Positions 342 through 4,339 of a stretch of 64,000 nucleotides of DNA are shown in pieces. The stretch lies in contig NZ_BKAU01000001.1 in the NCBI RefSeq assembly GCF_007992715.1, positions 1,364,001-1,428,000 on the forward strand, read 5' to 3'. Each line of letters opens with the position of its first letter. The stretch's first letter is position 1. The position numbers and the translations under genes are program-made. Origin of the DNA: Chitinophaga cymbidii. Its GTDB lineage: Bacteria > Bacteroidota > Bacteroidia > Chitinophagales > Chitinophagaceae. The notes under the pieces are model-generated. The model was given only the letters and a program-made list of their open reading frames with translations. It made no database searches and was not told the DNA's origin.

Positions 342-1751
342 TCAATCTTCTCTCGGCCCGCCTTCCGCCATCCGCACGATCTTCGGGTGGAACTTGCCCA
401 CCACGTCCACCAGTGCGGTCTGTGCTTTCATCACGGTTTCGATGTCCTTGTAAGCGCCGGGGGCTTCGTCCAGCCCACCGCCGATGAGCTTCACTTTGTG
501 CTCCTGCAGGAGCTTGTTCAGCTCGTGCCCGGTAAAGGACTGTGTGGCTTTGGAACGGCTCATCTGCCTCCCGGCGCCATGTGACGCGGAATCCAGCGAT
601 GCCGCTTCACCACGGCCGCGCACAATGAAACCCGGTGCGGTCATAGACCCTGGTATCACACCGAGTACACCTTTGCCTGCCGGCGTAGCGCCCTTCCGGT
701 GTACCACCAGCTCTTCTCCGCCATGCGTTTCCTTCCAGGCGAAATTGTGGTGGTTCTCTACCCTCGCCAGCAGTTGTCCGCCTACGGCCCGGACCAGTCT
801 TTTATGGATCTGGTGGTGACAGGCAGAGGCGTAATCTCCGGCGAGGTTCATAGCCAGCCAGTATTCCTGTCCTGCTTCGCTGTCCAGTTCTAACCAGGCG
901 AGGTGCTGCACTTCCCGTGGCAGCGGCGTGATCTCGCGCGCCACTTTGGTATAATGCCCCGCGATCTGGGCGCCCAGGCCACGGGAACCGGAATGCGACA
1001 ACAAACCGATATACCGGCCGGGCGGCAGCGCCCATTCGTTGTCAGCATCGGTAATGTCCACCAGTCCCCATTCCACAAAGTGGTTACCGGAACCGGAGGT
1101 GCTCAGCTGCGCGGCCGCTTTCTGATGCAGGTGCTTCAGCAACCCGATCTCGCTGAAGGCAGGATGTTCCAGCACTTCGTCTTCCAGCCGGGGCTTCCAT
1201 TCAGCGCCGGCGCCGAACACCGTGCCGGCGATCAGCTCGCGCTTGAATACGGAGGCGTTCTTTTCCAGCTGTTCCTGCGGGATGTCCAGGATGCTCAGGC
1301 ACATCCGGCAGCCGATGTCAACACCTACGCCGTAGGGGATCACCGCATTCCTCACGGCGAGCACGCCGCCGATCGGCAGGCCATAACCCTGGTGGGCATC
1401 CGGCATCAATGCGCCGGCGGCGGTCACGGGCAGGCGCATGGCGTAATTCATCTGGCTGATAGCGCCTTCGTCTATAAATTCCTTTCCGTATACGGCATAG
1501 TCTGCCGGCGCTTCATTTAAGGCGATCTCCTTTGATTCTTCCACGATCAGCTTCTCCGCGATCTTTCCGAGGTGTTCGTCTTCACGGTAGGCTTCCGGTT
1601 CCTGCAGCACTTTCTGCAGCAGAGCCAGTGCATCGTTTTGTGAATGATGTTTATAGTGCTGCTCCATCACGGTGATGGCCACACTGATGACGGGGGATTC
1701 CGGGAACCCGATGTTCCGGAGGTCTTTACCCCGCAATTTTAACTTTGCCAT
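342..1751 (-). CDS. rtcB: RNA-splicing ligase RtcB
   Basis: 469 residues, full length. RtcB is a Mn- and GTP-dependent RNA ligase joining 2',3'-cyclic phosphate or 3'-phosphate ends to 5'-OH ends in RNA repair or tRNA splicing. Visible signatures are PDAHQGYG (about 117-124), the metal-binding GVDIGCRM (143-150) with its Cys, SGSGNHFVEWG (220-229), SHSGSRGLG (252-260), and HGAGRQMSR (391-399), whose His is the residue guanylylated in characterised RtcB proteins. No archease or rtcA lies nearby. The ATG at 1751 follows a stem-loop and a small ORF, so the gene may be translated from a structured leader (see 1765-2029). Confidence 0.95.
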   Translation of the reverse strand: MAKLKLRGKDLRNIGFPESPVISVAITVMEQHYKHHSQNDALALLQKVLQEPEAYREDEHLGKIAEKLIVEESKEIALNEAPADYAVYGKEFIDEGAISQMNYAMRLPVTAAGALMPDAHQGYGLPIGGVLAVRNAVIPYGVGVDIGCRMCLSILDIPQEQLEKNASVFKRELIAGTVFGAGAEWKPRLEDEVLEHPAFSEIGLLKHLHQKAAAQLSTSGSGNHFVEWGLVDITDADNEWALPPGRYIGLLSHSGSRGLGAQIAGHYTKVAREITPLPREVQHLAWLELDSEAGQEYWLAMNLAGDYASACHHQIHKRLVRAVGGQLLARVENHHNFAWKETHGGEELVVHRKGATPAGKGVLGVIPGSMTAPGFIVRGRGEAASLDSASHGAGRQMSRSKATQSFTGHELNKLLQEHKVKLIGGGLDEAPGAYKDIETVMKAQTALVDVVGKFHPKIVRMAEGGPRED

Positions 1752-2091: not shown

Positions 2092-2658
2092 TTATATCAG
2101 CACTTCGCTGTCCTCAAACTGTTCGCGCAGCTCCAGCATCTGCGACTGGTGCCTGGCGATGTGGCGGGTAAGGAAGTAGATATATTGATAGATATCCAGC
2201 TTGCCAAGGTCGTTTACCGTCATCATCGTTTTCACCAGCCGGCCTTCGCCGTTCTTGAGCAGGCTCAGGTTATACATGCACTGCGCGAACTGCTGCTTGA
2301 GCAGGGCCCTCACTTCTTCCATATCCCTGATGCCGGTGGGTTCCAGGTGCTCGGGGTTCACCCATCCGAAAGACTTGCTGCTGACTGTTTCTATCTGCCT
2401 GAATTTTTCTTCATAGTCATGCGGCGCCATCAGGATGAGGCCATCCAGCTTACGCGCCAGCGCCCTGCGGGTGCCTTTATTGATAATGAGTAAGAGGAAG
2501 TAGTTGGTCAGGCTGATGTGTTCCAGTACCTCACGAATGTTCCATTGTTCCGGTGAAGGTTTGAAGTGCAGCAGATCCTCATCCAGCTGGAACCAGCGGT
2601 CCAGTTCCCGGAAGTTGTTTACCAGGGCCTCTCTTACGAATTGTACTACGTTTCTCAT
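2092..2658 (-). CDS. DinB-like four-helix-bundle protein
   Basis: About 188 residues from the ATG at 2658. The opening MRNVVQFVREALVNNFRELD followed by KPSPEQWNIREVLEHIS resembles the DinB/YfiT-like superfamily, in which a Trp-x-x-x-x-hydrophobic-x-H motif on helix 2 helps bind metal; EQWNIREVLEHI fits that helix, and a later HIARHQSQM could supply a C-terminal His. Such proteins include thiol S-transferases, but many are uncharacterised. The frame is open upstream to 2805, yet that extension runs through a terminator-like hairpin, so I chose the internal ATG; 2706 is another option. It stands alone between terminators. Confidence 0.65.
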   Translation of the reverse strand: MRNVVQFVREALVNNFRELDRWFQLDEDLLHFKPSPEQWNIREVLEHISLTNYFLLLIINKGTRRALARKLDGLILMAPHDYEEKFRQIETVSSKSFGWVNPEHLEPTGIRDMEEVRALLKQQFAQCMYNLSLLKNGEGRLVKTMMTVNDLGKLDIYQYIYFLTRHIARHQSQMLELREQFEDSEVLI

Positions 2659-2770
2659 TGCTCTTGTTTTTGGGGCAATCACTTTTTTCACAAAAGCGGT
2701 TACCATGTTTATATATAGATGTTCATATTGTTCATTTTCCACAGACCCTTTTACAGGCCAGGTTAAATAA

Positions 2771-2803
2771 AAAGCCCGGCGCGCTTTGCTTGCGGACCGG
2801 GCC
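2771..2803 (-). terminator. Terminator-like hairpin
   Basis: GCCCGG (2774-2779) pairs with CCGGGC (2797-2802), with further partial pairing inside. On the minus strand the stem is followed by TTTTTATTTA. It would end a minus-strand transcript coming from the small ORF at 2833-2940 or from readthrough of the 21-codon gene. Confidence 0.6.
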
Positions 2804-2832
2804 ATATAACGTTAACGTTCTTATCGTTTACA

Positions 2833-2940
2833 TCATAACATACCTTCTCCGCCGGGACTGTGCCACATACACTTTCCCCCTGGCGCTTTTGCCATGCATT
2901 GCTTCTCTACAGATACTATGTTTGTCAGTTCCTTCTTCAT
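2833..2940 (-). CDS. Candidate 35-residue ORF between two terminators
   Basis: An ATG at 2938-2940 opens a 35-codon frame ending TGA at 2833-2835. The peptide begins MKKELTNIVSVEKQCMAKAP and continues with a Gly-rich part holding a second Cys and a Trp (GGKCMWHSPGGEG). No family is recognised. It lies between hairpin terminators at 2960-2984 and 2771-2803. The Lys-rich start and two Cys are compatible with a small secreted or modified peptide, but no modifying enzyme or exporter is adjacent. The frame could be chance. Confidence 0.25.
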   Translation of the reverse strand: MKKELTNIVSVEKQCMAKAPGGKCMWHSPGGEGML

Positions 2941-2959
2941 TACATCACCAAAACAAAAA

Positions 2960-2984
2960 AGGCCCCGCATTTCCTGCGGGACCT
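2960..2984 (-). terminator. Intrinsic terminator of the 21-codon micro-gene
   Basis: AGGCCCCGCA (2960-2969) and TGCGGGACCT (2975-2984) form a 10-bp stem with one mismatch and a 5-base loop. On the minus strand it is followed by TTTTTTG, 24 bases beyond the stop of the micro-ORF at 3009. Confidence 0.8.
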
Positions 2985-3008
2985 CTGTTATATCTTAGAT
3001 AACTTCTG

Positions 3009-3074
3009 TTATTTCCAGTTATAACTGCCCGCAACCAGCCTCTTCGCGTGCTTCTGCATGCGTTTAGAGACCAT
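3009..3074 (-). CDS. Candidate 21-residue basic microprotein
   Basis: ATG at 3072-3074, TAA at 3009-3011. The peptide starts MVSKRMQKHAKRLVAG and ends SYNWK; about a third of the residues are Lys, Arg or His. It is too short for normal gene callers. Support comes from context: a TACTTTTG minus-7 box lies about 53 bases upstream on the same strand, a strong intrinsic terminator lies 24 bases downstream, and no other gene uses either. That gives a discrete transcript of roughly 150 bases. The composition suggests nucleic-acid or ribosome binding, as in tiny ribosomal proteins, but this is inference. A small regulatory RNA is the alternative. Confidence 0.45.
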   Translation of the reverse strand: MVSKRMQKHAKRLVAGSYNWK

Positions 3075-3126
3075 TACCTTATATGTACAATTGCGTGACA
3101 CTGCTTTCAGTTTTGTTTTACTAATG

Positions 3127-3134
3127 CAAAAGTA
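3127..3134 (-). promoter_or_regulatory. Promoter minus-7 box for the micro-gene
   Basis: Minus-strand TACTTTTG matches TAnnTTTG exactly, and an ATTG lies 21 bases upstream as a weak minus-33. The predicted start is near 3120, leaving a leader of about 45 bases before the ATG at 3074. Confidence 0.55.
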
Positions 3135-3256
3135 AAAAGTATTTTTCTCCTGTCACAATTTTTTTGGTTAAAAAATTGTTTCTTCTGCATTTTTTTTATA
3201 AACCGCATTCGTCATCCCGGATCATCGTATCCGGACCTTCAAACAGTGTTCGTCCT

Positions 3257-4339
3257 TTAAAACAATCTCAACTGGCTCTGCGGCCGCTGGAACAAGCTGG
3301 TATTGAACTCGAACCGCTCCTGGTTCAGCCCTGTCCGTTTCGCCTGTACCCTGAACTGCTGCCTGATTATTTCCGCGATATTGCCATCGCCGCGCATGCG
3401 CCGGCCGAAATCGCTGTCATTCACCTGCCCGCCATGCATGCTTTCTATCATATGCCATACTTTGTCCGCCCGGTCCGGGAAGTTCTTGTACAGCCAGTCG
3501 TTAAAGATGATCTTCACCGCATCATTGAGCCGCACCACCGTATAGCCGGCGAACTTCGCGCCCTGCTCCGCCGCCGCTTCCAGCAGCCGCGGTATTTCAT
3601 GATCGTTCAGGCCGGGGATGATCGGCGCCGTCATCACCCCCACGGGCACACCCAGCTCGCTCAGTTCCCGCAATATGCGCAAACGCTGTGTGGCGGTAGT
3701 TGTCCGTGGCTCCATCTTCTGCCGGAGATCTTCCTGCATGGTGGTCAGCGATACGAACACACACACCAGGTTATGCTCCGCCATCTTCTGCAGGATATAT
3801 TTATCGCGCAATACCAGCGCATTCTTCGTAATGATACCCACCGGCTGCTTATACTCCCAGGCCACTTCCAGCAATTGCCGCGTCAGCCACATCTTCCGCT
3901 CCAGCGGCTGATAACAGTCCGTGTTGCCGGAAAGCGAGATCGGCTTCGGCACCCATTTCTTGTTATCCAGGAACTTCCGCAGCAACTCCGGCGCATTGTG
4001 CTTTGCCACGATCTTCCGCTCGAAATCCAGCCCGGCGCTGAAGCCCCAGTACTGATGCGAATTGCGCGCATAACAATAAATGCATCCGTGCTCACAACCC
4101 TGGTAAGGGTTCATCGAATACCACATGCCTACATCGGGACTATCTACCTTATTAACCAGGGTCTTCGCACGTTCTTCAAAGATCTGCGTCGGCGTATCGG
4201 CCTGCCACCACTCGTCTATGCCTTCCACATGTTCCTGCGCGTATTCCTGCGCCAGGTACCTGTTCTTAGGATTAAGCTGCGCGCCTCTACCTTTATAGTA
4301 AGGGTTTTCCCGGGGTTCTTCGGAAAAAGGGATCGTCAT
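3257..4339 (-). CDS. PA0069/Rv2578c-family radical SAM protein
   Basis: About 360 residues from the ATG at 4339; the frame is open further upstream, but MTIPFSEEPRENPYYKGRGAQLNP is the natural family N-terminus. The cluster motif is in YQGCEHGCIYCYARNSHQYWG, a CxxxCxYC arrangement for a 4Fe-4S cluster and S-adenosylmethionine. The family is related to spore photoproduct lyase, but its reaction is unknown to me. TGNTDCYQPLERK and later basic segments agree with family members. An inverted repeat overlaps its promoter (4353-4370), suggesting a repressor. It is followed after more than 200 bases by the micro-gene region. Confidence 0.85.
   Translation of the reverse strand: MTIPFSEEPRENPYYKGRGAQLNPKNRYLAQEYAQEHVEGIDEWWQADTPTQIFEERAKTLVNKVDSPDVGMWYSMNPYQGCEHGCIYCYARNSHQYWGFSAGLDFERKIVAKHNAPELLRKFLDNKKWVPKPISLSGNTDCYQPLERKMWLTRQLLEVAWEYKQPVGIITKNALVLRDKYILQKMAEHNLVCVFVSLTTMQEDLRQKMEPRTTTATQRLRILRELSELGVPVGVMTAPIIPGLNDHEIPRLLEAAAEQGAKFAGYTVVRLNDAVKIIFNDWLYKNFPDRADKVWHMIESMHGGQVNDSDFGRRMRGDGNIAEIIRQQFRVQAKRTGLNQERFEFNTSLFQRPQSQLRLF

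Follow-up and report, generated by a model that had tools for sequence, protein, structure and literature searches.

The window (the whole stretch of 64,000 nt analysed here) carries on its minus strand a gene for a DinB_2-family protein, followed by a gene for the RNA ligase RtcB (Table 1). The DinB gene is preceded by a leader of around 440 nt, which consists of two units with the layout of attenuators. The first of these units had been described in a first-pass annotation as a discrete transcription unit for a microprotein of 21 residues, with signals that nothing else uses.

Table 1. Genes and leader features of the DinB locus (positions refer to the window)
Feature	Position	Strand	Basis
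Promoter box TACTTTTG	3127..3134	-	TAnnTTTG box before ORF1 start in 79/79 genus genomes
ORF1, leader peptide VSRNCTYKVMVSKRMQKHAKRLVAGSYNWK, GTG start, 30 aa	3009..3101	-	Frame conserved among relatives
Region 1 (GUC.CGCAAUU), ORF1 codons 1-5, putative partner of region 2	3089..3099	-	MFE; swap test
Hairpin CGCAUGC-AGAA-GCACGCG inside ORF1	3045..3062	-	Fold and alignment
Region 2 (GGUUGCGGGC), putative partner of region 1 or region 3	3027..3036	-	Folds, alignment
Region 3 (GGUCCCGCA), terminator 1 5' arm and putative antiterminator partner of region 2	2975..2983	-	Swap test, folds
Terminator 1 (regions 3:4 and T-run)	2955..2986	-	Preferred in full-length fold, 79/79
ORF2, second leader peptide MKKELTNIVSVEKQCMAKAPGGKCMWHSPGGEGML, 35 aa	2833..2940	-	An ORF2 in 79/79
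Region 2' (GCGGAgaaGGU), ORF2 end, putative partner of terminator 2 5' arm	2842..2852	-	Swap test
Terminator 2 (GGCCCGGUCCGC..GCGCGCCGGGC and T-run)	2765..2803	-	Fold and genus scan
DinB_2-family protein, 188 aa, gene taken as regulated	2092..2658	-	Pfam DinB_2 2e-11
RtcB RNA ligase	1751..342	-	DinB neighbour in window

The signals named in that annotation are present: the exact promoter box TACTTTTG at 3134-3127 (minus strand), presumably a Bacteroidota box of the TAnnTTTG type, from which transcription would start around 3121; the 21-codon ORF (MVSKRMQKHAKRLVAGSYNWK, 3074-3009, minus strand); and a strong intrinsic terminator, the hairpin of which (2986-2958) comprises 12 pairs, 7 of them GC, and is followed by a T-run. 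The proposed ATG start could not be upheld. The 21-aa ORF is the in-frame 3' part of ORF1, the frame of which is open upstream to the GTG at 3101, and the start conserved among relatives is an ATG or GTG nine codons upstream of the earlier ATG, a position (codon 10) that is occupied by ATG in 3 of 79 genomes. When both strands of the 64 kb were scanned for a box, an ORF of at least 20 codons and a terminator, one such unit was found; the same scan on ten first-order Markov shuffles yielded none in nine of them and one in the other. The RNA of unit 1 folds better than its shuffles (z -5.54, 0/200 as good), and the hairpin inside ORF1 takes the form CCUGC..GCAGG in other clades, as judged by fold and alignment. 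Concerning initiation, the A-content over positions -15 to -1 before ORF1 is 61%, which fits translation initiation in Bacteroidetes (PMC6847099); the stretch before ORF2 is not A-rich (32%). Ahead of the box by around 34-48 nt, the stretch GAAACAATTTTTTAA (3182-3168 in the window) is highly conserved in the window and in 17 close copies, and in the window's clade it is possibly an upstream promoter element or a binding site.

Concerning the second unit, an ORF2 (32-64 aa as called) is situated between terminator 1 and DinB in all 79 Chitinophaga genomes that were compared, and over these stretches the other two frames hold 319 and 143 stops, as against the 79 terminal stops in frame. Terminator 2 was placed by scan in 76 of the 79, at 18-35 nt past the ORF2 stop and with a mean energy of -18.5 kcal/mol; in the remaining three, its hairpin was recognised by eye and the T-run is interrupted. 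In the window, unit 2 alone folds moderately better than shuffles (z -1.90, 9/200 as good). The notion that nothing else uses the signals of unit 1 is thus contradicted twice, by a second ORF and terminator that come after the unit and by the DinB-family gene, upstream of which the unit lies in 79/79 genomes. At many genus loci outside the window's clade (e.g., L073-L074 and L080-L085), inspection by eye suggested a third hairpin (GUUAUGUGC ... GUGCAUAAC or a variant of it) that would lie past terminator 2 and ahead of the DinB start; it might tune translation.

A DinB homologue is present in all 79 genus genomes. The Pfam match above cut-off, together with three histidines that match the metal-binding set (47, 166 and 170; conserved in 67/67 aligned sequences, the other 26 of 93 being cut short and left out), places the protein in the DinB/YfiT superfamily. 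Its confidently predicted structure (pLDDT 89.7) is closest among PDB entries to the mycothiol S-transferase 8f5v and to YfiT 1rxq (Foldseek probability 1.00), and since these matches have E values of 0.02-0.03 and an rmsd of 8-10 A, the likeness is one of fold level only. No PDB match to the model was obtained at E<=0.001, and the protein sequence gave no PDB and no NCBIfam match.

The neighbourhood of DinB was counted at 30 of the 79 genus loci and at 23 loci outside the genus. Within around 1.5 kb downstream of DinB, RtcB is found at 13/30 and 11/23 of them, respectively, and an AAA ATPase at 15/30 and 5/23, with both genes present at 2/30 genus loci. The loci with the ATPase include L058, L060 (Pfam AAA 3.4e-10), L073, L144 and L146; in the window, no match to it was obtained. 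There, a hairpin resembling a terminator (2067-2041) lies between DinB and RtcB. The loci with RtcB as a neighbour include L142, L143 and L148; in g93 and g105 it follows directly after DinB, and since RtcB takes this place in genera without the leader, leader and RtcB are not tied to each other. From this context, a link of the DinB locus to RNA damage or translation stress can be guessed at. Upstream of DinB in g93/g105, a slipin/SPFH-like gene was seen by eye. Furthermore, among 36 loci scanned, the DinB homologue is followed on the same strand, after around 0.1-0.4 kb, by tRNA genes at L149, L150 and L178 (g107; arrays of 10, 10 and 7) and at L144 (g48; two tRNAs), and L141 has a single tRNA upstream of it.

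Conservation of the leader and constraint on ORF1

The order of box, ORF1, terminator 1, ORF2 and DinB was found in 79/79 genus genomes (upstream region of all 79, i.e., 30 + 49 loci), such that in each of them the gene is preceded by a short ORF with a promoter box on one side and an intrinsic terminator on the other; the script for this layout was written after examples had been seen, and the count is to be read as presence, not as surprise. The first base of the box lies 14-42 nt upstream of the ORF1 start in all of these genomes, the ORF1 stop ends 26-42 nt upstream of the terminator-1 core, and from this core to the DinB start there are 295-547 nt. ORF1 begins with ATG in 42, GTG in 36 and TTG in one genome and is 27-35 aa long, most often 30 aa (47/79). 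Over codons 2-26, its frame is open in every genome; the two alternative frames are open in 45 and 17 genomes, respectively. The first-pass annotation had named the loss of the frame at loci that keep the signals as an observation that would speak against its reading; since the frame is kept alongside the signals in 79/79, this objection does not apply.

The peptide itself is under weak constraint. The comparison covers those 59 of the 79 genomes in which no indel precedes region 2; 48 of them are distinct over codons 2-20, with 47 nearest-neighbour pairs. Nearest-neighbour pN/pS amounts to 0.56 over codons 2-20 (0.75 in the part up to codon 11 and 0.48 from codon 12 on) and to 0.92 over codons 21-29. 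In the C-terminal part, a conserved stretch (UGCGGGCA..GUUAUAAC) is read in another frame in some relatives. Codon 7 encodes Tyr (49) or His (7) in 56/59 of the indel-free rows, a position that is compatible, as a position only, with drug-dependent arrest in the first ten or so codons. Weak peptide constraint fits a leader ORF, and judged from the sequences this is a leader-ORF pattern, in which frame and position would matter and the peptide little, with a possible exception for the early codons, at which a pause of the ribosome would be required.

These data bear directly on the reading of ORF1 as a functional cationic microprotein, e.g., a ribosome-associated one, with an incidental position before DinB. 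Such a protein would agree with the universally kept frame, with the composition of codons 2-20 (23% basic and 1.5% acidic residues) and with the partial constraint on these codons, but it would explain neither the pN/pS of 0.92 in the last codons and the frame shifts over conserved RNA nor the different peptides that other genera have at the same position, and ORF1 is succeeded by a further ORF of like logic. The resemblance to ribosome-associated microproteins noted in the first-pass annotation is one of composition only (pI 11.2): no PDB sequence match and no Pfam match to the ORF1 peptide were obtained, and with its weak constraint there is nothing that assigns it to the small ribosomal or ribosome-associated proteins. 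We regard this reading as very improbable. Of the discrete microprotein unit, what stands is a conserved short frame with its own box and terminator; the frame belongs to a leader ORF and not to an independent gene. In the search with the 21-aa peptide proposed along with it, matches with E values up to 10 were obtained in 8/59 genomes; of the seven that were inspected (all but L005), four are real (the own copy, G033, G006 and G003) and three looked like chance.

At the nucleotide level, a pattern built from the ORF1 start was found in 17/79 genus genomes (reversed control pattern: 1/79), and a DinB-family gene starts 421-538 nt downstream of it in all 17 close copies. Several wobble positions of ORF1 are invariant or nearly so in these copies, which, like the strong fold of unit 1, would be expected if the terminated leader RNA of around 165 nt acted chiefly in trans as a small RNA, with the ORF being incidental or a second function. 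This possibility is likewise given very little weight, because the frame is conserved and DinB lies downstream in 79/79, because the sequence diverges between clades while the layout stays, and because a second attenuator unit follows.

G033, which stands nearest to the window in DinB and radical-SAM identity, has a DinB gene that appears frameshifted (L052/L072; tblastn splits it in two near residue 147), with ORF1 and both terminators of the leader looking intact. A second DinB paralogue in G155 (L138) has no leader in the 520 nt upstream of it.

With a DinB homologue from another genus as query, 33/394 genomes of the family matched, 10 of them within the genus. Tandem ORF/terminator units precede the DinB homologue (within 900 nt) at 6 of 23 out-of-genus loci, three of which belong to genus g31 and one each to g48, g77 and g107. 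Their 2:3 energies range from -12.1 to -17.7 kcal/mol, their sequences differ, and their leader peptides are by eye unlike those of Chitinophaga. Since the layout is thus kept with different sequences, it either predates them or has arisen repeatedly. No tandem leader was found at the other 17 of the 23 loci, two of which (L178 and L191) exhibit just one ORF/terminator and a candidate pairing. A covariance model spanning the stretch from the hairpin to terminator 1 (R1) was abandoned as a leader finder: RNAalifold kept the terminator stem only, so R1 largely finds terminators, and with E values up to 0.1 it had matches in 165/195 genomes of the family. This draw included four genus genomes, and each of them had one strong match (E of 5e-15 or below), located at the DinB leader; outside the genus, the lowest E value was 1.0e-6, and of the 15 out-of-genus R1 loci inspected by eye, none possesses the leader layout.

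Alternative pairings in the two units

In the first unit, the motif UGCGGGC near the end of ORF1 (region 2) has two possible partners, CCCGCA of region 3 and the codons at the ORF1 start (region 1). The letters of the 1:2 pairing change between clades, with GUC.CGCA and UGCGGGC in the clade of the window, GUGCAAC and GUUGCAC in a second and CGCAAUCC and GGUUGCG in a third one. Compensations are also found in unit 2, e.g., AUACGGAC with GUCCGUA vs UAAUGGGC with GCCCAUU. When the partners were permuted between genomes, a procedure that ignores phylogeny, the own partners were better than permuted ones for 1:2 (mean -11.24 vs -10.38; 9/5000 as low), by a small gain for 2:3 (-11.69 vs -11.55; 6/5000) and for the ORF2 end with the terminator-2 arm (-13.37 vs -11.45 kcal/mol; 0/5000), and in the negative control, 1:3, 4675/5000 permutations were as low. 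Both units accordingly contain an ORF end that can pair with a terminator arm through co-varying partners, as in an antiterminator, phylogeny being ignored. Comparison between genomes shows the layout, the frames and coordinated partners for a putative antiterminator in both units.

The folds, i.e., antiterminator and terminator, are predicted. If the RNA is cut after region 3 and the initial 33 nt of ORF1 are hidden, the 2:3 pairing has P>0.5 in 74/79 genomes, and with nothing hidden it is preferred in 70/79. Before region 3 is made, the putative protecting pairing, 1:2, has P>0.5 in 69/79 (10/79 are without a confident 1:2), yet at equilibrium it does not prevail over 2:3. In unit 2, the ORF2 end pairs with over half of the terminator arm in 69/76. 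Once the full terminator 1 is present, it wins over the antiterminator in 79/79 genomes in each of three scenarios, also at equilibrium with the ribosome-covered stretch removed; antitermination would therefore need to be kinetic. The thermodynamics allow such a kinetic switch and do not prove it. Against shuffled upstream sequences, region 3 finds some partner in 248/395 cases (real sequences: 79/79), such that pairing propensity alone is weak evidence and the co-variation the stronger one.

Conserved alternative pairings and terminators would also be expected of a riboswitch that senses a metabolite or a protein and controls both terminators, with translation of the ORFs not being part of the switch, and the lack of a visible regulatory codon run would suit it. 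Two ORFs, each with its stop shortly before a terminator, are not what such a switch predicts, however, and no common aptamer-like core was seen by eye between the units or the genera. A search of positions 2750-3260 of the window against Rfam gave 11 matches, all below gathering score, among them Leu_leader with 23 bits (cut-off 50) and Trp_leader with 22.1 bits (cut-off 41); the 13 matches at eight related loci are all tRNAs. We consider a riboswitch of this kind improbable.

Proposed mechanism

The most probable reading, which we hold with considerable though not full confidence, is that the 5' leader of the DinB-fold gene constitutes a tandem transcription attenuator under the control of the ribosome, with the ORF1 unit as its first half. 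Transcription would begin near 3121. If ORF1 is read without delay, the ribosome at the stop would cover region 2, the 3:4 hairpin of terminator 1 would form, and a short leader RNA would be released. In the case that no ribosome is present, region 1, i.e., the first codons, would pair with region 2, and terminator 1 would form too. A ribosome slowed in the first ten or so codons of ORF1 would hide region 1 and leave region 2 free; region 2 could then capture region 3, terminator 1 would fail and the polymerase would continue. Unit 2 would follow the same logic, with region 2' acting against the 5' arm of terminator 2, such that DinB would be made only when both units have been passed. Translation of the ORFs, early stalling as the signal, the series (AND) logic and the type of stress are what we infer from this arrangement.

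As the signal, translational stress is most likely, e.g., by ribosome-targeting antibiotics or by shortage of tRNAs. Since no run of one regulatory codon, as expected of an amino-acid attenuator, is visible in ORF1 or ORF2, an antibiotic or tRNA shortage is likelier than a single amino acid. Lysine is present in both ORFs in 79/79 genomes. The sensing of cysteine, tempting before a thiol-transferase-like gene, is unsupported, though conceivable: Cys is found in ORF1 in 78/79 and in ORF2 in 74/79 genomes, and as the other frames of ORF2 hold as much of it (5.1% and 4.2%, vs 3.4% in frame), it looks compositional there. In ORF1, the coding frame has a Cys share of 5.2%, vs 3.2% and 0.7% in the other two.

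A wider reading is tentative, and we think it rather unlikely to hold as a whole: the two leader-ORF attenuators would form an AND-gate through which a DinB-fold, thiol-transferase-like enzyme, often with RtcB or an AAA ATPase as a neighbour, is made only when translation is impaired so strongly that ribosomes stall in both ORFs one after the other, and which serves as a sensor of translation damage at a new locus for RNA repair or detoxification in Bacteroidota.

Relation to known leaders

The leaders of trp, leu, his and ilv contain a leader ORF, mutually exclusive 1:2, 2:3 and 3:4 pairings and an intrinsic terminator before the gene. The Chitinophaga leader resembles these attenuators of amino-acid operons in its leader ORF, in the three predicted pairings and in the terminator before the gene, whereas it differs from them in the missing codon run, in having a DinB-fold gene in place of a biosynthetic operon and in its two ORF/terminator units in series. 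The erm leaders, vmlR and yxjB of B. subtilis and topAI-yjhQ of E. coli are attenuators with uORFs that sense antibiotics; in contrast to these, the unit of Chitinophaga is doubled and the gene DinB-like, and the likeness is one of principle, with no relation in sequence being claimed. Tandem riboswitches, in which two switches lie in series before one gene, differ in that each Chitinophaga unit holds an ORF, and no known RNA family reaches the gathering score here.

In the antibiotic-sensing uORF systems, as in the reading proposed here, a short ORF senses translation stress and controls a downstream gene (cf. PMC12121999, PMC9226507 and PMC6851288). In the same phylum, PMC9723704 finds strong indications of attenuation by leader peptides before operons for amino-acid biosynthesis of Flavobacterium psychrophilum; the genes are different ones there. 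Among the matches listed for literature on Chitinophaga, on DinB leaders and on leader-peptide attenuation, subscription papers excepted, no description of the leader was found. A series of two such attenuators ahead of a DinB-fold gene thus appears to be undescribed, and its principle is that of the trp and leu leaders and of the antibiotic-sensing uORFs.

A conserved short ORF between a promoter and a terminator calls for a check of the downstream gene before it is taken for a microprotein. What had been supposed to be an orphan microprotein is, on the reading preferred here, a regulatory device that the whole genus keeps and that recurs in several further genera under other sequences, in a phylum for which little was found on leader-peptide attenuation. 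The leader would offer a natural two-stage attenuator for the study of transcription-translation coupling where initiation proceeds without Shine-Dalgarno sequences, and it may serve as a cheap and direct handle on what the DinB-fold proteins of Bacteroidota respond to.
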